DNA of 41,793 nt from Candidatus Eisenbacteria bacterium. Lineage in GTDB: Bacteria > Eisenbacteria > RBG-16-71-46 > JASEGR01. Both the position numbers and the translations under genes were made by a program. Shown here in pieces: positions 3,474-31,432 of the stretch (positions are counted from its first letter, which is position 1; every line of letters begins with the position of its first letter). Location: contig JASEGR010000009.1 of NCBI GenBank assembly GCA_030017955.1, positions 8,786 through 50,578 of the forward strand. Direction: 5' to 3'. A model generated the notes under the pieces. It was not told the origin of the DNA and made no database searches. It saw nothing but the letters and a program-made list of their open reading frames with translations.

Positions 3474-4211
3474 CTATGATTTCTTGCCAGAATTGAACTT
3501 GACCAGTTTCTTCCACATTATTGAGCCGTCCTTAGCACAGTACTCGCGCGCGAACTCAATTGTGAATTTGTTGACGACTTTCGCGTATTCCTTTGAAAAT
3601 TTCTCGTTCCTCTCTTTTGCCCTGTCGCCCAACGGTTCGACGATCTTCGTGTACAGACCTTCGTCCCCAGAAACAAACTCCCAAAATCTCTGTCCGCAAT
3701 ACTTCTGGTAGTCTCCCTTATCTGGACTATCGTCTTTTCCACAACAACAGCCGTTTATCGCAACGATCTTCGTTTTCGATATGGATGTACGCAAAATCTT
3801 TTTCGCTTTCTTGAAGTCATCCTTCATCCTTGCAATTTGGCGACTGTTGCCCCAATTGGGGCCCGACTTTATGGAAACGATGTGTTTGACCCCATCCCTG
3901 TCAAACTCCAGATCAATCCCTTCCGCGGAAGATTTCTTCCCCCCAAAGGCCTGACCGCAAATGAAGAGCGCTAGACTTTCAAGAAAATCTCCAAAGATTC
4001 CTTCTTCTTGTGACGACAAGTGAGCGTCCAACAAGGTTTTCACCAGATCGTGGGCGGTATTCAGGGCCTTGGCCTTCAACAGATAGGGGTTTTTCCTCTT
4101 GAGAATTTTATTAAGTTGGAGGGCCAAGAGACTATCCAATCTCCTCTTGTGAAAACTCTGGATGTTCTTTCCGACAAATCGGACAATGCTTTCTTTTTCG
4201 ATCTTAGCCAT
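3474..4211 (-). CDS. Type II restriction endonuclease, PmeII-like
   Basis: A 245-aa protein resembling PmeII-family type II endonucleases. The conserved block around FGDFLESLA (74-82) supplies an acidic residue, E79. It is followed by GIDLEF (98-103) and VSIKSGPNWGN (112-122). I read this as a PD-(D/E)XK-like site with D100 and K115, where the residue two before the lysine is Ser rather than Asp/Glu, so E79 may substitute. Two cysteine clusters (CCC near 185, and a later C) could bind metal. The ATG at 4211 is chosen because it overlaps the methyltransferase stop (4204-4206) by 8 bases, implying coupled expression after the methyltransferase; a longer reading only copies the methyltransferase 3' end. 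The gene appears intact. The recognition sequence cannot be predicted from this sequence. Confidence 0.82.
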   Translation of the reverse strand: MAKIEKESIVRFVGKNIQSFHKRRLDSLLALQLNKILKRKNPYLLKAKALNTAHDLVKTLLDAHLSSQEEGIFGDFLESLALFICGQAFGGKKSSAEGIDLEFDRDGVKHIVSIKSGPNWGNSRQIARMKDDFKKAKKILRTSISKTKIVAINGCCCGKDDSPDKGDYQKYCGQRFWEFVSGDEGLYTKIVEPLGDRAKERNEKFSKEYAKVVNKFTIEFAREYCAKDGSIMWKKLVKFNSGKKS

Positions 4212-5139
4212 ACTTTCTGCTTCTTTCTTTCCTAGCAAACGGGGCAGCTTGGGCCGCCCCAAGTTTCTTCTTGGCCAGTCTAACGTACTCCGGTTCAACA
4301 TCTATCCCGACTGAATTTCTACCGAGTTGCTGAGCCACCTCACAGGTCGTTCCGCACCCAACGAAAGGATCTAGGACCCAGTCACCTTCTTTGGTGAAAA
4401 GCTTGATAAACCATTCGGGCAGAGCGCGTGGAAAGGCTGCACTGTGATTCCGATTTCCTGTCTCGGTGGCCAGATGGAGAACGTTAGATGGATAGGCCAA
4501 TTCCCTGCCAATCCAGTTCGCAATATTTTTTCCAAAGCCGCTCCCGACTTGAGAGTTGAACCTCTTCACATCGTTTTTCCCAAGGTGCCTTAACCTTGTT
4601 TCTGCCCACTTGCCCATGGGCACCATCACATTTTCTTGATACATATGGAAGTCTTTTGACTTGTTGAACTGTAAACACCTTTCCCATGCGTCGCGGAATC
4701 TGTTCGGCCATTTGCCAGGATGGCAATTCTTCTTATGCCAGATAAATTCCTCAGTCCACAACCATCCTTGCTTTCTCATCTCAAGTATCAGCTCGATTAC
4801 ATAAGTGTGCCTTTCTCCGCCAACCACTCTCTCCTTGATGTTCAGCATGAATGTACCGGTAGGTTTGAGTACCCTGAGAAACTCGTTACTCCTTGGCAGG
4901 AACCAGTCTACGTATCTCTGTGGCTTGATCCCCCCGTAGGTCTTCTCCCGACTGTCGGCATACGGGGGAGAGGTCACAATTAGGTCAAAGAAGTCCCTTG
5001 GATAGTTCTTCAGGACTTCGAGGCAGTCACCTTGCCTTATTTCGTGTTCAGCAGTTCTCATAATGTCAGATATTGGACCCCAGTCGATTCTAGTCTGCAG
5101 ACTCCGCGGTCCGGACGTCAAGCCTTCTTTGTCTCCCAT
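4204..5139 (-). CDS. Site-specific DNA methyltransferase, class beta (TSPPY), partner of PmeII-like enzyme
   Basis: A 311-aa AdoMet-dependent DNA methyltransferase. Catalytic motif IV TSPPY (56-60) comes before the AdoMet-binding motif DPFVGCGTT (near 270), so the motif order is class beta. SPPY is common in N4-cytosine enzymes but also occurs in some N6-adenine enzymes, so the modified base is unsure. The start ATG at 5139 follows GGAGGAGGGTTT, a strong ribosome site; an alternative ATG at 5061 lacks one. It precedes and overlaps the PmeII-like endonuclease and protects host DNA from it. The two form a complete type II system. Local GC is lower than in the neighbouring housekeeping genes, consistent with horizontal acquisition. 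Confidence 0.92.
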   Translation of the reverse strand: MGDKEGLTSGPRSLQTRIDWGPISDIMRTAEHEIRQGDCLEVLKNYPRDFFDLIVTSPPYADSREKTYGGIKPQRYVDWFLPRSNEFLRVLKPTGTFMLNIKERVVGGERHTYVIELILEMRKQGWLWTEEFIWHKKNCHPGKWPNRFRDAWERCLQFNKSKDFHMYQENVMVPMGKWAETRLRHLGKNDVKRFNSQVGSGFGKNIANWIGRELAYPSNVLHLATETGNRNHSAAFPRALPEWFIKLFTKEGDWVLDPFVGCGTTCEVAQQLGRNSVGIDVEPEYVRLAKKKLGAAQAAPFARKERSRKYG

Positions 5140-5257
5140 AAACCCTCCTCCCCACACCCACTCTGTGAAGTGCTCTCGTTGTCCAGGCAATCTTGGACCG
5201 GACAAACTTGCCGCTTGCCTCAGGACTTGCTCTCACTCTTCTTGTTCCGTTCCGACA

Positions 5258-11980: not shown

Positions 11981-13930
<1,950 letters not shown>

Positions 13931-14132: not shown

Positions 14133-15005
14133 ATGTCGGAGCTCTGGAACAAGAGCCATGAAAGCGATTTCTTCACAAAGTCGCTGCGAAATGTGGCTCC
14201 GGAACAGCTCTTCTACGTTACCGAAGAAGGCCGATTTGTGGCCTATTGGCCAAAGAAATACGGTGGAGAAAAGAATACTCTCCAGAGCCGAAACGCGCTG
14301 ATTGGCGACTACACGGAGAAGTGAGTTTGTGATTTGCTCGCTCCAGTTTCAAAGAAAGCTGGAGGATATTGCGTACGGGGAATAGTCTGCGAAGAAATTG
14401 GGCTGACGAAACAATCCCCAGCAGATGTGGCAATTTGCAGAGACAGCAAAATTTTGCAAGAACCGGAGAACATTTTGTTGATAACAGAAGTCAAGATGTC
14501 AATAGTTTGGAATTGGGAGTTTTCCCCCACAAGGAAGAGTCTAGACTGTCTTGGTGATTACAAAACTCACCAAGGAAATCCCGGACTTCTGAGATCGGAC
14601 ACAATGCTGAAGGCCATTGGCAAGATCATCAATATCCGCGTGTCCAGCGCCTCTGCTTCCAAGATTCCAATCGTCATCATAGGTAATACTCCCATTACAG
14701 ACACCTACTACGAGAAGGTTGATCATTTGAAAAAGAACGGGATTATCCAAGGCTTTTGGTCTGTGAATCCCAAGCCCCTTGACAAAGCTGGCGAAAACAT
14801 AAAGAACACACCAAATTACGGATTCCGCAGATTTGATAACTACGAAGAACTGGAATCGAATACGCTGAAACTATTGAAAGAAGACAGAGAATTCTTTTCC
14901 AGTATGATGACTAAGAAGAGACTAGGAGAAGTCATTGAACTGGCTAACAGGGAATCGACTTTTGAAGGGAAGGCGCAGAAATTCTTGGGGCTTTTGGGAC
15001 GATGA
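14133..15005 (+). pseudogene. Type II restriction endonuclease gene interrupted by an in-frame TGA
   Basis: One reading frame runs from ATG 14133 (AGGAG four bases upstream) to the stop at 15003-15005, about 290 codons. It is broken only by TGA at 14322-14324, between ...GDYTEK and VCDLLAPVSKK. Homology-like continuity across the stop and absence of any frame change argue for a single TGG-to-TGA (Trp) or similar point change, or a sequencing error. Downstream, SPADVAIC followed by LLITEVKMS gives a PD-(D/E)XK-type D...E-x-K site, so the catalytic half remains open. A weak restart (TTG at 14334) would give a 223-aa product without the first 63 residues. The methyltransferase follows 16 bp later. 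Family within type II enzymes not recognised. Confidence 0.75.
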
Positions 15006-15021
15006 AGGGGGGGCAATACCT

Positions 15022-15948
15022 ATGGAACGACAGGATTCCTCGGTGAGAAGAAGGAGCGGAACGCAGACCAGCGCCTTTGGTACGCCTGGGCGTATTAACC
15101 ATGATTCTTCAAGGTTCTACAACAGCAGACTTTACAAAGGATTGAGCAACGGGACAAACATGGAATATGTTGAGAACGTGATTGAACCGCAATACAAAAA
15201 CAGAATCTTTTGCAAGAGTAGCGAGGGAATGACCGAACTCCCAGACAACAGCGTTCATATGATGGTCACATCGCCGCCGTACAATGTCGGAAAAGAATAC
15301 GATGAGAATTTGTCTTTAGACGAATATCGGGAGTTCCTGAGGCGAGTGTTCAGGGAGACATATAGAGTGCTGGTACCTGGTGGCAGGGCATGCATAAATG
15401 TAGCGAACTTGGGAAGAAAACCCTATCTGCCGCTCCACAGTTATGTTATTGAAGATATGCACAATATTGGTTTCCTGATGCGAGGAGAAATACTGTGGGA
15501 CAAGGGTAGCAGCGCGAGTCCTTCCACTGCCTGGGGCAGCTATTTGAAAGCAAATAATCCTGTGCTACGAGATGTTCATGAGTATATTCTCGTTTTTTGC
15601 AAAGATACCTTCTCAAGGCTAAACCCACAAAAAAGAAAAAGTACCATTTCAAAGACGGAATTTCTGGAATTTACCAAGAGCGTCTGGAAATTTCCCGCCG
15701 AGCGTGCGACTAAAGTTGGTCACCCTGCGCCATTTCCGTTGGAACTACCGTATCGCTTAATCCAAATGTACACTTTTGAGGGCGACGTTGTTCTTGATCC
15801 TCTTGCGGGCAGCGGGACGACCTGTATTGCAGCACTGAAGACCAACAGGGAATATGTGGCTTATGACATTGAGAAAAAGTACTGCCACCTGGCAGAGCAG
15901 CGACTAGGGCGATTTCTTGCCGGGATGGCTAGGTTGTCTCCAATGTAA
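15022..15948 (+). CDS. Site-specific DNA methyltransferase, class beta (TSPPY)
   Basis: A 308-aa DNA methyltransferase. The N-terminal tail includes INHDSSRFYNSRLYKGL, commonly seen in this subfamily. Catalytic motif TSPPYNVGKEYD starts at residue 83, and AdoMet motif DPLAGSGTT is near 263, so the order is class beta; the base modified is N4-cytosine or N6-adenine. The ATG at 15022 is chosen because AAGGGGGG precedes it and the family's N-terminus begins here; the open frame extends upstream into the endonuclease but without a ribosome site. The gene is intact although its endonuclease is broken. It would still protect or mark host DNA. It lies in the interval between gyrB and gyrA, probably through horizontal insertion. 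Confidence 0.92.
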   Translation: MERQDSSVRRRSGTQTSAFGTPGRINHDSSRFYNSRLYKGLSNGTNMEYVENVIEPQYKNRIFCKSSEGMTELPDNSVHMMVTSPPYNVGKEYDENLSLDEYREFLRRVFRETYRVLVPGGRACINVANLGRKPYLPLHSYVIEDMHNIGFLMRGEILWDKGSSASPSTAWGSYLKANNPVLRDVHEYILVFCKDTFSRLNPQKRKSTISKTEFLEFTKSVWKFPAERATKVGHPAPFPLELPYRLIQMYTFEGDVVLDPLAGSGTTCIAALKTNREYVAYDIEKKYCHLAEQRLGRFLAGMARLSPM

Positions 15949-16064
15949 GCCTCTCGGCTACGAACCGTGGGCGTGGGAATTTGGATTGTATGTTGAGATA
16001 GACGGGAGTGGCGAGTTGCAAGTCGAACCCCGTCGACTTCAGCAATCTTAAACGGGAGTATCTG

Positions 16065-18491
16065 ATGGCACTGGGAAGAGAAAGAGTACTGCCGCGCTAC
16101 ATCGAAGATGAGATGAAGAGCTCTTACATCGATTACTCGATGAGCGTAATCGTATCCAGGGCCCTTCCGGACGCAAGGGATGGCTTGAAGCCCGTGCAAC
16201 GAAGAATTCTTGTCGCTATGAGGGATCTCGGCGTCCATCATGACAAGCCCCACCGGAAATCGGCAAAAATAACCGGTGACGTGACCGGTAACTACCATCC
16301 TCACGGAACCGTTGCAGTGTATGAAGCGATGGTTAGAATGGCGCAGGATTTTTCGGTCCGGTATCCCCTTATCGACGGCCAGGGAAACTTCGGCTCGATC
16401 GACGGCGATTCACCCGCGGCCGAGAGATATACAGAGGCAAGGCTCAGCGCTCCCGCAGAGGAGATGCTGAGTGACATTGAGAAAAACACAGTCAATTTCA
16501 GGCCGAACTACGATGAGTCGAGAGAAGAACCAATTGTCCTCCCGGCACTTCTTCCAAACCTGCTCGTAAACGGCTGTTCGGGTATTGCAGTTGGAATGGC
16601 AACGAACATTCCTCCACACAACCTTGGAGAAATAGTCGATGCGGTGGTGAAGGTCGTGGATGACGCGGATGTCGCGCCGGAAGAGCTCCTCAAGGTAGTC
16701 AAGGGACCCGATTTTCCAACCGGCGGCGTGATCTACGGAAGGGCAGGAATCAGAGATTGTTATCTCACTGGAAAAGGGCTCATGAAAGTGAGGGCAAAGG
16801 CCTCCATCGAGACCCAGGAAAGCGGGAAGGAGAGCATCATAGTCGAAGAAATTCCCTTCCAGGTCAACAAATCTTCGCTTCTGGAAAAAATCGCGGACCT
16901 TGTAAAAGAAGGGAAAATTGATGGTGTAAGCGACCTCAGGGATGAGTCAGACAGGGAAGGCATGCGCATCGTAGTTGATTTGAAGAAAGATGCCCAGGCA
17001 AGGGTTGTGCTCAACCAGCTTTTCCATCACACACAGCTCGAGACGACCTTTGGGGCTTCAATGCTCGCTATCGTCAAAGAGCGGCCGAGGATACTTACCC
17101 TCAAGGAGGCAATCGAGCAGTACATAGAACACCGCAAGGAAGTGATTGAGAGAAGGACAAAGTTTGACCTTGATGAGGCAGAGAAGAGAGCGCACATCCT
17201 TGAGGGTTTGAGAATCGCCCTGAATCACATAGACGCGATAATAGCCCTTATTAAGAAGGCAAAAGATACAGAGACTGCAAAAGCCGAGCTCATGGCCAAA
17301 TTCAAGTTGAGCGACATCCAGGCGCAGGCAATTCTCGATATGAGACTTGCAAGACTCACCGGCCTCGAGAGAAAGAAAATCGAGGAGGAGTACCTCGAAC
17401 TCATCAAACTCATTGCCAGGCTCAAAGGGATTCTTGAGAGTGCCAGGAAGATCCGGGAGATCGTAAGAATAGAAGCTCTCGAGCTGAAGAAGAAGTATGG
17501 TGATGAGAGACGCACGGAGATTGTTTCCGAAGGGGTAGAGTTTGAAGTGGAAGACCTGATTGCAGAAGAGGACATGGTTGTAACGATATCGCGCGCGGGT
17601 TACATAAAGAGGCTTCCGGTTACGACATATAGAAAGCAGCACAGGGGAGGTAAGGGTGTAACCGGCGCATCGATGAAGGAAGAAGATTTCATCGAACACC
17701 TTTTCATAACGTCGACCCACAGCTATCTGCTCTTTTTCACAACAAAGGGAAGATGCCACTGGCTCAAGGTTCACGAGATTCCCCAGGCGGGCCGTGTGGC
17801 AAAGGGTAAGCCGATAGTGAACCTGATTGAGGTGGACAAGGACGAGAGAACCACGGCTGTTGTTCCCGTGAAGGAGTTTGATGAGCAGCACTATCTCATC
17901 ATGGCAACGAGGAGAGGAACTATCAAGAAGACAAACCTCTCAGCTTATGGAAATCCGAGAAGGGCCGGGATAAATGCAATCCATCTTGACGAGGGAGACG
18001 AGCTCATAGATGCCCAACTCACCGACGGAAATCAAGACGTTGTCCTGGCAAAGAAGCAGGGGAAAGCGGTGAGGTTCAATGAAAGAGACGTCCGGCCGAT
18101 GGGGCGGAGTGCCCGGGGAGTAAGGGGTGCGACCCTTGAAGGTCAGGACGAAGTTGTCGGGATGGTCAGCGTGAGGAGGGATGGGACACTTCTCGTCGTA
18201 ACTCAGAATGGGTACGGCAAGAGGAGCCCGCTCGATGACTACAGGGTCACGAGGCGGGGCGGGAAGGGGATTATTACGGTAAGAAACACTCCAAGAAATG
18301 GGCCCGTAGTTGCGCTGCTCGAAGTTGTAGATGATGATGAGCTTATGATCATGACAATTAGAGGCCAGATTATAAGACTCCCGGTTAAGGGAGTTTCGGT
18401 TATGGGAAGAAACACCCAGGGCGTGCGGCTTATCACTCTCGATGAAGGAGACAAGGTGGCGGGGGTGGCAAGAGTAATAGCTGGCGAGTGA
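16065..18491 (+). CDS. gyrA: DNA gyrase subunit A
   Basis: An 808-aa GyrA, the DNA-cleaving and wrapping subunit of gyrase. The ATG at 16065 is chosen because GGGAG lies seven bases upstream and because residue numbering then coincides with the Escherichia coli enzyme: the catalytic tyrosine in AAERYT is Y122. A GTG at 16008 would add 19 residues. The quinolone region reads [13 protein letters not shown]82, V83 and E87 replace D82, S83 and D87 of E. coli. The C-terminal beta-pinwheel contains the GyrA-box variant QHRGGKG (near 525) and later GR...GV repeats. It is followed by the WD40 gene after 92 bp. Confidence 0.97.
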
Positions 18492-28155: not shown

Positions 28156-30753
28156 CTACCTTCTACCCGGAAGTTTTTTCCCTCCGGCTGACTCGGGCAG
28201 GCCTAACTTGAGCTGAGACCTGTCCTTCACTTGTCCCGCCATAGGTCTGTCGAGGCTTGTCGCAACGATCGCGTCAACGTCGAGTTTTCCACGGTGTTTC
28301 TGGTATCCCTGCTCAAGATTTTCGAAAAAGACAGGTTTCCAAGAATCTGCCAGGTATCGCTCACCGAATAAAGGAGAGCGAAGCTTGCGAGCCAATTGAT
28401 TTCTTCGTTCAAAGGGAGTAACTAGATATTTGGGAACCGAGGAATCTACGTTGGACCCTCGCTTGAGAGCTTCGGTCATCGAAGTGGTTGTCTCAATCTC
28501 GAAAACAGCTTCCACCGCGCCACCTTTGAGCCACAGGACATCAATATTCTCAACCTCGTCGAGATTCTTGGCATTGCTGAGCTTTTGGAGCGACGATTTG
28601 GAAACGAACTGCCGCAGTTCTCCTTCCCGGTCAGAGAACCCCTCTGCCAGCGGGTCTCCCTGTTCCTTGCGGCCTATCCATATCTCGTAACCGTGAGCCT
28701 TGCCGACTTCGGCCAGGACGATGATCATTCGAGTATGCATCCTTCTGATCGTCTCGCGGTTATATTCGGGCTTCAGCATCCATTCGCCCTTGCCTACAGG
28801 TCGGGCATACGCCTCGAGGGCTTCCTTAATGCTGATAGAATCCGTGGTGAGGGCATTCGGAAACTCCTCGCTGATTGCCTTCCACATATCAGTGAAAGTG
28901 ACTCGCCCCCGTTCTTGAAGCTTCCTCAGAACTGTCTGTTCAACTCGCTCCGAGAGCGGCACGGTCTGCAAACGCGGGATGCTTGAGGGATCCTTGAACC
29001 ACCATGCTTTGCCTTCAGTCCCTCCAATAGCCACAGAAACCAGAATGAACTCCCGGTCCAGTTGGTTTTCAAGTGCGGTCTTGACGTCCAATCCAGCTCG
29101 CAGTTCAGAGAAGTAGCCATTTTTGGCCAGCTCCGGATCAATCGCGTTGATGAGAATCGTATAAGGCGTTGGCTCGGCGCGTTCAGCAAGCACACGCTTG
29201 GCTGTTTCCAACACGATGCGCTCAAACCGTGCGGCATCTATTTCCTCGGGAGGAACCGCCTTTCCCGTGGTCTTTGGTTTGTGGAATCGAAGATAGAAGT
29301 CACCCTGAGCAGAGCCGAAGGGTTGCAAAAGGGACTTTGCCGAAGGACGCGCCAGCTCTTGATGGTAGATCTTCTTCAAATCCAAGCCTGCCATGACACA
29401 TGCATAGATCGTTGCATTTCGGACTTTGAACGTCGGATTGTGGAAGGTCAATGTCAGATGAGCATCAGGCTTAAGCACATCATGCATCCTTCGAAACGCA
29501 TTACGGAGGAGGGCGTGATACACATCAAACGGCTTGTGCTGACGTTCGTTTCGGACAACTTCCTTCGCAAGGATCCTGTCCAGATAATCGGCGTTCTTCT
29601 TAAGCCAGGCAACCCAAAGATAGGCCAGCTCCCCATATTGCACAGACGCGTCGTAAGGCGGATCGGTAAAGACATAGTCCACGCATTGACCGTGATTTTC
29701 GGCCATCTCTTTCATCAAGTCCAGGCAATCACCACCATGGATGTACACATCTGCCCGGTCTTCAAGCACCTCCTCAACCGTCTTTCCAATCCGAATTGAC
29801 GAGAAGAATCGGTTGGATTCCTCCTTTGCCCTGATAAGCCCCTGATGTCCCATCACGGCGCTTTCGAACTTTTCCCAGACATTCTGTTCCATATGGGGTC
29901 CCGAAGGGTACCAGTAGCTATGATGTATCCAGGCTGAACTAAACGGAGTGAAGTGTCCGGCTTCTGAGATCGGACACATATTTGTGCACAGATGCACCAT
30001 CGATGTGAACGCAATCTTCAAGAAATCCTGCAGGTCGCGCTTGGGCTCGTCTTCGATAGCCTCCATCAGCCAGGCAAGCGCGGTCAGGTTTCGCTTTGTG
30101 AAAAGTTGATCAAGCGATTCGTACTGCTGTTTCTCTTTGAACGGCGTGCCATCGGGATAGTAGAGCCGGTTGCGCGGATACCAGGCCTTACTCCGCATAC
30201 GTTCAATCTTCTCAAGAAGAGCTTTGTCAGCTCGATTTGGGCCGCAATCCTTTTCCTGCCGATCGCCGCAGGATGGACAAGCCTCGTACCGGATTTCCAC
30301 GCACTGGCCGCCGTCCCAAACAGCGCAGGTAAACGGGAATGTGTGGCGACACTTACGGCAGCTCGTCTCGTATAGTTTAAGAATGCGACCTTTCGCACGT
30401 TTCTCAACTCGTTCAAAAGCTTGTCTCAACTGCTCCAGATCGATGGGCTTTATCGTAAGGCGGGTAATTTCAGCAGCAATCGGAAGGAGATCGCAGACAA
30501 TCGCCTTCCGGCCTGCTCTGAGTGCCTCCATCGCGACCACCCCACTACCCGCGAACGGATCCAAAACTATTCCGCCCTCAGGACAGTAGGTTTTGATGTA
30601 TTCACCCACAACATTCCAGGTTTTTCTTCCCCAGAATTTGTGCCAAACGTACATTGGCGTGTGGGCTAACGGAGGTATCTGCTGGCTTATGTGTTTTGGG
30701 TCTCGAGCGGAAGAGGGGGCCGGTGCTTGCTTGACTCGTCTCTTGGATTTCAC
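28156..30753 (-). CDS. DNA methyltransferase fused to a C-terminal nuclease-like domain
   Basis: An 865-aa protein. AdoMet motif LDPFAGSG (64-71) precedes a zinc-ribbon-like insertion (C132, C135, C143, C159, C162) and catalytic motif TDPPYDAS (363-370), so it is an amino-type DNA methyltransferase of the large DUF1156-like group (FWGRKTWNVV and SAQGDFYLRF also fit). After about residue 500 come a helical linker, a probable winged helix (600-660), and a C-terminal domain with GYEIWIGRKEQ (688-698), IDVLW (737-741) and FEIETTTS (751-758). The D...E-x-E pattern resembles degenerate PD-(D/E)XK restriction folds. The start GTG at 30753 overlaps the stop of the RadC-like gene in a GTGA junction. 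Methylation, targeting and perhaps cleavage in one chain suggest a single-protein restriction-type system. The nuclease assignment is inference. Confidence 0.82.
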   Translation of the reverse strand: MKSKRRVKQAPAPSSARDPKHISQQIPPLAHTPMYVWHKFWGRKTWNVVGEYIKTYCPEGGIVLDPFAGSGVVAMEALRAGRKAIVCDLLPIAAEITRLTIKPIDLEQLRQAFERVEKRAKGRILKLYETSCRKCRHTFPFTCAVWDGGQCVEIRYEACPSCGDRQEKDCGPNRADKALLEKIERMRSKAWYPRNRLYYPDGTPFKEKQQYESLDQLFTKRNLTALAWLMEAIEDEPKRDLQDFLKIAFTSMVHLCTNMCPISEAGHFTPFSSAWIHHSYWYPSGPHMEQNVWEKFESAVMGHQGLIRAKEESNRFFSSIRIGKTVEEVLEDRADVYIHGGDCLDLMKEMAENHGQCVDYVFTDPPYDASVQYGELAYLWVAWLKKNADYLDRILAKEVVRNERQHKPFDVYHALLRNAFRRMHDVLKPDAHLTLTFHNPTFKVRNATIYACVMAGLDLKKIYHQELARPSAKSLLQPFGSAQGDFYLRFHKPKTTGKAVPPEEIDAARFERIVLETAKRVLAERAEPTPYTILINAIDPELAKNGYFSELRAGLDVKTALENQLDREFILVSVAIGGTEGKAWWFKDPSSIPRLQTVPLSERVEQTVLRKLQERGRVTFTDMWKAISEEFPNALTTDSISIKEALEAYARPVGKGEWMLKPEYNRETIRRMHTRMIIVLAEVGKAHGYEIWIGRKEQGDPLAEGFSDREGELRQFVSKSSLQKLSNAKNLDEVENIDVLWLKGGAVEAVFEIETTTSMTEALKRGSNVDSSVPKYLVTPFERRNQLARKLRSPLFGERYLADSWKPVFFENLEQGYQKHRGKLDVDAIVATSLDRPMAGQVKDRSQLKLGLPESAGGKKLPGRR

Positions 30754-31397
30754 GACAGAGCGTCGGCGACTCGTTTACCAACCTCAAGTGCAGCGATGAT
30801 GCGGATAATCTTTACAGAGTTCAGCCCCTTGATGCGGAGCTCCTCGCCCAAGAACTGTCCGAAAAGTCCCAGAATGGTGCCATCGAACCGGGCAAGAAGA
30901 TCTTTGGCGATTACTTTCGGTGGTCGTCCGCGCACCCCCGAGCCGATAATTGTGGCAAGCAGGTCTACATCATCGGGTTCTTTGGGCTGCGGCTCTGAAT
31001 CTGACGGCGGTTGAGGGGTCTGAAAAAGACCATCTTCAATACTTGGGCTTGACCAGCTCAATTTGTAGGCGCGATAACGTTTTCTGCCAATCTCAATCGC
31101 TGCCATAATGCGTGATGCCTTCCGACGGCCGAGACCGGCTATCTTGGCTAGATCCTCAACGGTGGCTTCCCGGTGGATTCCGTACAGGCCGATATAAATG
31201 TCGAGCACTGCATTCGCAATGCTGGTCGCGGGGCGCCCTGCTGTGCCTGAGCCGATCAAAATCGCCAGTAACTCATATTGCTTGAGGGTGTGGGATCCAA
31301 GCTCGACGAGTTTTCCTCCTGGATGGCTCCATCTCTTTTCTTGCTGAGAGGATTTCTCGGAGGGGACTGCCGAGCTAGACGCGGCCCGATCATTCAT
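30750..31397 (-). CDS. RadC-like protein with two UPF0758 helix-hairpin-helix domains, no JAMM domain
   Basis: A 215-aa protein. Two copies of the RadC N-terminal domain are visible: residues about 38-108 (YELLAILIGSGTAGRPATSI...KIAGLGRRKASRIMAAIEIG) and about 143-213 (LLATIIGSGVRGRPPKVI...RIKGLNSVKIIRIIAALEVG). Each ends in a helix-hairpin-helix DNA-binding motif. They are joined by a Pro/Ser-rich linker. The C-terminal JAMM/MPN metalloprotease-like domain of true RadC is absent. It is the first gene of a pair, overlapping the methyltransferase-nuclease gene by four bases. A promoter ends six bases before its ATG, predicting a leaderless mRNA. It may supply DNA binding or substrate sensing for the fusion protein; this is inference. 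Confidence 0.8.
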   Translation of the reverse strand: MNDRAASSSAVPSEKSSQQEKRWSHPGGKLVELGSHTLKQYELLAILIGSGTAGRPATSIANAVLDIYIGLYGIHREATVEDLAKIAGLGRRKASRIMAAIEIGRKRYRAYKLSWSSPSIEDGLFQTPQPPSDSEPQPKEPDDVDLLATIIGSGVRGRPPKVIAKDLLARFDGTILGLFGQFLGEELRIKGLNSVKIIRIIAALEVGKRVADALS

Positions 31398-31403
31398 ATC
31401 TTT

Positions 31404-31432
31404 ATCTTATCCACCGTGGGGGAAGCGGTCAA
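31404..31432 (-). promoter_or_regulatory. Promoter of the RadC-like/methyltransferase cassette (leaderless type)
   Basis: Minus strand -35 TTGACC (31427-31432), 17-bp spacer, -10 TAAGAT (31404-31409), then AAAGAT and the ATG at 31397. There is no Shine-Dalgarno. Confidence 0.65.

Follow-up and report, generated by a model that had tools for sequence, protein, structure and literature searches.

A RadC-derived helix-hairpin-helix protein paired with a methyltransferase and nuclease-like fusion: a probable compact restriction-modification cassette

What do two overlapping genes make when one encodes a small helix-hairpin-helix (HhH) protein related to RadC and the other a large DNA methyltransferase with a nuclease-like C-terminus? 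The two genes lie in a stretch of 41,793 nucleotides from a Candidatus Eisenbacteria bacterium (contig JASEGR010000009.1, positions 8,786 to 50,578 of the forward strand), which is the window analysed here. We consider that the cassette is probably a compact restriction-modification (RM) system, composed of one bifunctional enzyme and a small, exchangeable, DNA-binding HhH accessory subunit; its enzymatic activities, the physical interaction of the two proteins and the role of the HhH protein are what we infer. Small HhH proteins of the same family also accompany other RM enzymes, and this recurrent partner is a wider and more surprising point than the cassette alone. The two genes and a promoter-like site are as follows.

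30750..31397, minus strand: HhH gene, encoding a RadC-derived protein of 215 amino acids (aa) with two UPF0758_N HhH domains and without a JAMM domain (open reading frame (ORF), Pfam, homologues upstream of the fusion gene)
31071..31325, minus strand: HhH domain 1, residues about 25-109, opening with the signature W-S-H-P-G-G-K (Pfam UPF0758_N, alignment, motif tally)
30756..30986, minus strand: HhH domain 2, residues about 138-214, the tandem copy (alignment)
30750..30753, minus strand: GTGA overlap of 4 bases between the stop of the HhH gene and the start of the fusion gene
28156..30753, minus strand: fusion gene, 865 aa, encoding a Dam-like DNA methyltransferase, winged helices and an ExE nuclease-like domain
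31404..31432, minus strand: promoter-like site TTGACC-17-TAAGAT upstream of the HhH gene (9/12 matches)

The first-pass annotation of this DNA had described the two genes as overlapping by GTGA and the small protein as carrying two UPF0758 HhH domains but no JAMM domain. The overlap is present at 30753-30750, and both ORFs have the extents listed above. Pfam UPF0758_N matched the small protein twice (5.4e-19), and nothing JAMM-like was found in it. The proposed shared, near-consensus promoter was recovered as a single -35/-10-like site upstream of the HhH gene with 9/12 matches (0.1 such sites expected in shuffles), which is not evidence of function; since the site matches at only 9 of 12 positions, "near-consensus" was slightly generous.

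With the fusion protein as the only query, a scan of 84,980 species genomes found 22 relatives, 53-73% identical over nearly the full length, in about nine phyla (Rokubacteria, Nitrospirota, Nitrospinota, Planctomycetota, Bacteroidota, Lentisphaerota, Fidelibacterota, Myxococcota and Thermodesulfobacteriota). A UPF0758_N HhH gene lay directly upstream on the same strand, mostly with an overlap of a few bases, in all 21 relatives that had upstream sequence, and three more cases, G403 (L077), G686 (L081) and the divergent G975 (L086), came from later searches, all with the HhH gene, which brought the count to 24 of 24. Because it is conserved in every one of these homologous loci, the pair arrangement is not due to chance. 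The cassette is rare (4/395, 3/392 and 3/77 genomes in three phyla, and 1/47 in the host's own phylum), and phyla are intermixed in the cassette tree; the rarity and the mixing together suggest that the cassette probably moves horizontally as a unit. The linkage count and the phyla-mixed tree support the annotation's idea of a self-contained unit, one that has spread horizontally. Both genes are under purifying selection, with nonsynonymous/synonymous divergence (dN/dS) in the closest pair of 0.038/0.537 for the fusion gene and 0.040/0.305 for the HhH gene (about 0.07-0.13), and the two proteins co-diverge (distance-matrix Mantel r 0.84, 0/5000 permutations).

A phage origin of the cassette was rejected by scans of viral contigs. 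The fusion protein had no relative among the viral contigs scanned, its one phage match was weak and covered the methyltransferase part only, and an HhH scan of viral contigs returned full RadC-type proteins only and no small HhH protein. Directly downstream of the most divergent HhH-fusion cassette lies a second methyltransferase, of SPPY type (L086:687-1529).

The large protein was examined with Pfam, an alignment of 19 full-length homologues and AlphaFold models, and all of the parts that had been proposed for it (AdoMet motif, zinc ribbon, DPPY, winged helix and D...E-x-E) were found. They are located as follows.

30541..30561, minus strand: S-adenosylmethionine (AdoMet) motif I, D65-P-F-A-G-S-G71 (Pfam N6_N4_Mtase; six of seven residues invariant)
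30268..30360, minus strand: zinc-ribbon-like insert, C132-x2-C135 ... C159-x2-C162 (conservation)
29653..29664, minus strand: catalytic motif IV, D364-P-P-Y367 (invariant in 19 homologues)
28774..28956, minus strand: winged-helix domain, residues about 600-660 (AlphaFold model, Foldseek to tandem winged-helix proteins)
28285..28758, minus strand: C-terminal restriction-nuclease-like domain, residues about 666-823 (model secondary structure, homology to stand-alone nucleases)
28492..28542, minus strand: putative nuclease active site, D738 ... E752-x-E754 (conservation)

Pfam matched the protein to N6_N4_Mtase and D12-MTase, with no match to N6_Mtase/Eco57I. D65, P66, F67, G69, S70 and G71 of motif I are invariant in the alignment, as are C132 and C135 of the zinc ribbon, and C159 and C162 are conserved in over 90% of the sequences. 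Of the folds in the Protein Data Bank (PDB), the one that the full-length AlphaFold model (mean pLDDT 75) matched best was Escherichia coli Dam (4rtj), which is consistent with an alpha-class methyltransferase with the zinc ribbon in the insert between motifs I and IV; this insert probably holds target recognition. The order of motif I, recognition insert and DPPY is that of Dam and other alpha-class N6-adenine methyltransferases, but the fusion protein differs from them in having a much larger insert with zinc ribbon and helices, and in its winged-helix and nuclease-like domains. Residues 507-586 form an additional helical/wing region in the model.

A separate AlphaFold model of the C-terminal part (residues 500-865, mean pLDDT 82) contained winged-helix domains followed by an alpha-beta core, with a helix at 666-686, strands at 690-693, 739-743 and 746-753, a helix at 759-766 and a strand at 775-779. 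D738 lies just before the second of these strands, and E752 and E754 at the end of the third. All three residues are invariant both in the 19 full-length homologues and in stand-alone relatives of the domain, several of which are annotated as type II restriction endonucleases. The predicted secondary structure fits the PD-(D/E)XK layout, with ExE in place of ExK, a replacement known from BamHI. The domain also matches PADLOC REase_II (2.9e-7) and shares the pattern I-D..W..FExE..R..R..P with its stand-alone and EVE-fused relatives; EVE-like domains, which are modified-base readers, were found in two stand-alone relatives, one scoring above the Pfam cut-off and the other below it. Type IV restriction enzymes that combine EVE with PD-(D/E)XK have been predicted (PMC7641849), and they and PADLOC PDLC03534 have a homologous D...FExE nuclease-like domain, which there follows EVE or another N-terminal domain, whereas here it is fused to a methyltransferase. 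The C-terminal domain is, in our view, a probable, though unproven, nuclease.

Some of these relatives have neighbourhoods of their own. Three stand-alone proteins of about 420 aa, annotated as hypothetical or as type II restriction endonuclease (L046:5266-6528, L047:5233-6495 and L051:4263-5528), sit inside plasmid copper or heavy-metal resistance clusters with no adjoining methyltransferase. EVE-nuclease-like proteins of 366-372 aa (L068:3337-4449, L069:7394-8497, L070:8575-9693 and L076:7426-8526, with EVE tested for L068 and L076 only) are predicted type IV restriction enzymes that adjoin housekeeping genes (guaA, fumarase or dnaE, for example). A RadC fragment beside a stand-alone nuclease in L066 was considered as a second HhH-nuclease pair and was treated as a coincidence, because its ORF has the RadC motif RPRERL and the sister nucleases in L067 and L075 have no HhH gene.

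A second search used a single-domain HhH protein as the query and no information on neighbouring genes. It returned further small HhH copies that lack JAMM and are not linked to a Dam-like fusion: the Nitrospinota sample gave two such loci, and the 395- and 392-genome samples gave more. An RM gene was adjacent, or in the same small operon, at 19 of the 20 HhH loci with enough sequence. The partners are a type IIG-like family of 1005-1160 aa with N6_Mtase/Eco57I (L122, L125, L126, L127, L128, L131 (start only), L132, L141, L142 and L143), a second of about 1350 aa with Eco57I and TaqI_C (L129 and L130), a third of 892-1085 aa (L121, L133 (start only), L144, L145, L147 and L148), and a type I HsdR-S-M operon in which the HhH gene adjoins HsdR (L134). 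HhH and enzyme genes overlapped in 10 of 15 pairs measured; a small RelE-like ORF intervenes in L127 and a DUF3800 gene in L122. PADLOC REase_MTase_IIG matched HhH partners with values down to 4e-85, and PADLOC has no HhH component. As a control, none of 30 RadC loci (26 full-length RadC loci of the same search and four host JAMM loci, read on short flanks for this RM set only) had a homologue of these RM enzymes within 1.5 kb. From these gene neighbourhoods, the HhH protein is not specific to the methyltransferase-nuclease fusion and is a candidate for a general RM accessory, a point that the annotation had missed. A shortened HhH ORF of 68 aa was also seen near an hsdR fragment (L137:5958-6973) and looks like a decayed HhH-type I system.

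The cassette HhH proteins are single-domain (92-128 aa) in about half of the cases and tandem (186-217 aa) in the rest. The window protein is homologous, in two copies, to the N-terminal UPF0758_N domain of RadC (UPF0758/COG2003); it differs from RadC in the loss of the C-terminal JAMM domain (PF04002), in the tandem arrangement frequent in its family, in carrying HPGGK instead of RPRERL, and in its position beside a large RM enzyme, RadC being solitary. An HPG/DGK signature, mostly in the form W-x-H-P-G-G-K, takes the place of RPRERL in 32/36 HhH proteins versus 0/28 RadC proteins, and the alignment shows that the HhH hairpin keeps its invariant glycine. RM-linked HhH domains form a clade separated from RadC by a 99/99 branch in a tree built on few columns, of which the best-supported forks alone carry weight. 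Partners of type I, of type IIG and of the 892 family are intermingled inside this clade, so enzyme partners have been exchanged. Full RadC proteins with JAMM are encoded elsewhere in the host genome. One candidate small HhH gene, in L136, was discarded as a frameshifted RadC.

These results raise the possibility, which we put forward tentatively and at rather less than even odds, that RadC-type HhH proteins with W-x-H-P-G-G-K and without JAMM are an unrecognised, exchangeable third RM component, recruited by unrelated enzymes (Dam-like fusions, several type IIG families and type I HsdRSM) and adding a common step such as DNA-state sensing or cleavage licensing. A single ORF in L152 (2395-5379, minus strand) encodes a RadC-type UPF0758_N HhH domain followed in frame by a zinc-ribbon DNA methyltransferase; this predicted fusion supports a physical link between HhH protein and enzyme.

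Several observations weigh against an RM system with a general HhH accessory. The single ORF of L152 might instead be a RadC gene interrupted by insertion of a methyltransferase. In L135 (6766-7404, minus strand), a tandem HhH gene like that of the window has no RM gene nearby, being either an orphan or a remnant. The HhH gene is absent beside more distant type IIG relatives, which lie on plasmids and in G919; enzymes of this kind can therefore function without an HhH partner, and the HhH protein would be an accessory of particular lineages. The divergent HhH protein of L086 groups with RadC, and recruitment may therefore have happened more than once. Genes flanking the cassettes are mostly housekeeping genes; the cassette is thus not tied to defence islands, and the enrichment there that had been suggested did not appear. 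Within the C-terminal domain, the usual PD-(D/E)XK lysine is replaced by glutamate. Foldseek matches of the C-terminal model were dominated by winged helices, with FokI only at rank 4 (E 0.017), and sequence and profile searches of the PDB returned no nuclease for this domain. Nor was the fold proved by comparing profiles with the nuclease-like region at the N-terminus of the HhH-linked 892-aa family. The degenerate PD-(D/E)XK-like C-terminus of the annotation is supported as to its restriction-endonuclease-like family (PADLOC, shared motif) and its layout, but fold searches did not prove it.

In the mechanism that we propose, the 865-aa chain would use its Dam-like alpha-class methyltransferase to methylate a target base, most likely adenine at N6; the region between motifs I and IV would recognise the target, the C-terminal D...ExE domain would cut DNA without the mark, and the winged helices would add DNA contacts. 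Derived from RadC as an N-domain without the JAMM part, the HhH protein would be made first from the same transcript, with translational coupling, and would most likely bind the enzyme and the DNA backbone beside the site, thereby supporting target binding or licensing cleavage. Because enzymes that differ in their recognition and nuclease domains have this partner in common, it is unlikely to determine sequence specificity; instead of being the recognition subunit of one enzyme, it would serve unrelated type IIG-like and type I enzymes as an exchangeable accessory.

Two other roles for the HhH protein were weighed, and we consider each of them unlikely. It might be a brake or controller, made first to keep the nuclease off host DNA or to delay restriction in a new host, in the manner of the controller proteins of type II RM systems and not as an aid to target binding. 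The HhH gene is always first and usually overlapping, the position in which controller proteins or antitoxins usually sit, and in every type of system its neighbour is the chain that carries the nuclease, HsdR in the case of L134. However, DNA binding by HhH domains is usually not sequence-specific, in contrast to that of helix-turn-helix controller proteins, fused methyltransferase-nuclease chains need less timing control, and the distant type IIG relatives do without the gene. Alternatively, the protein might sense DNA structure and direct the enzyme to DNA that is replicating, branched or newly arrived, a role close to the annotation's hypothesis that the HhH protein senses or delivers DNA. 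RadC is believed to bind DNA structures through its HhH domain, and the window protein derives from this domain and retains the invariant hairpin glycine; partner swapping would also fit a sensor that works with any nuclease. A structure preference of the HhH protein would be an extrapolation from RadC, however, whose own function is disputed (PMC5512222), and this role is as doubtful as that of a brake.

The cassette as a whole could also be an epigenetic modification system in which the C-terminal domain is dead or only binds DNA, as the lack of a clear nuclease fold match, the ExE in place of ExK and the housekeeping neighbourhoods would allow. The invariance of D738, E752 and E754 in full-length homologues, extending to distant stand-alone relatives, argues against this, as do the EVE fusions of some of those relatives, which resemble predicted type IV restriction enzymes (PMC7641849), and the recognisable RM enzymes among the other HhH partners; we judge such a system improbable. 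A BREX-like or DUF1156/PglXI-type system, in which the methyltransferase only marks DNA and other genes restrict, is very improbable. Its zinc-ribbon-type methyltransferase core is common to PglXI (BREX type 3)/DUF1156 and the window protein, partial profile matches were obtained to PglXI (1.6e-38, residues 170-462) and DUF1156 (1.2e-10), and one relative of the methyltransferase part adjoins brxA. Yet the DUF1156_antiphage score (NF042963) is 40.2 bits, far below the NCBIfam cut-off of 1000, and the nuclease-like domain is in the same chain. Only the HhH gene is common to the loci, whose flanks read as unrelated housekeeping genes, and no BREX partner (PglZ, BrxC or helicase) was seen around the window cassette and its 22 homologues in ORFs read by eye, the flanks being read without a hidden Markov model scan.

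The RM reading, with restriction by the fusion protein itself, places the cassette closest to type IIG (IIC) enzymes such as Eco57I, MmeI and BpuSI. Like them it would have methyltransferase and endonuclease in one chain, the putative nuclease being assigned in the window by homology and by the invariant D/ExE residues, and it forms a solitary one- or two-gene system; other members of the HhH family precede typical type IIG-like enzymes. Type IIG enzymes, which cut sequence-specifically close to their site with stimulation by AdoMet, have however an N-terminal PD-(D/E)XK domain, a gamma-class N6_Mtase and a C-terminal recognition domain. The window protein has an N-terminal Dam-like methyltransferase (motif I before motif IV, zinc-ribbon insert), winged helices and a C-terminal ExE nuclease-like domain, and its HhH partner is always present. 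Because domain order and methyltransferase class differ, we do not file the enzyme as a type IIG member.

In the open-licence literature searched, we found neither the HhH-fusion pair nor any link between a RadC HhH protein and RM enzymes described. The usual account of RM systems treats R, M and S functions as the full set, and the recurrence of one HhH family, usually overlapping, before five RM enzyme families implies that a functional component is missing from it. The HhH partner might explain those cases in which a predicted type IIG enzyme shows no activity when expressed alone. Such partners can be searched for by W-x-H-P-G-G-K before UPF0758_N, either in a protein shorter than about 130 aa or in a tandem of about 215 aa, and a RadC-derived domain gains a testable function while the role of RadC is still disputed.

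Two further RM-like pairs were observed in the window. On the plus strand (14334-15948), a short nuclease-like ORF (14334-15005) and an SPPY methyltransferase (14935-15948) sit between gyrB (11984-13930) and gyrA (16008-18491), in the dnaA-dnaN-gyrB-gyrA origin region. On the minus strand (3474-5205), an SPPY methyltransferase (4204-5205) overlaps a 275-aa ORF (3474-4301) that reads like a restriction endonuclease.

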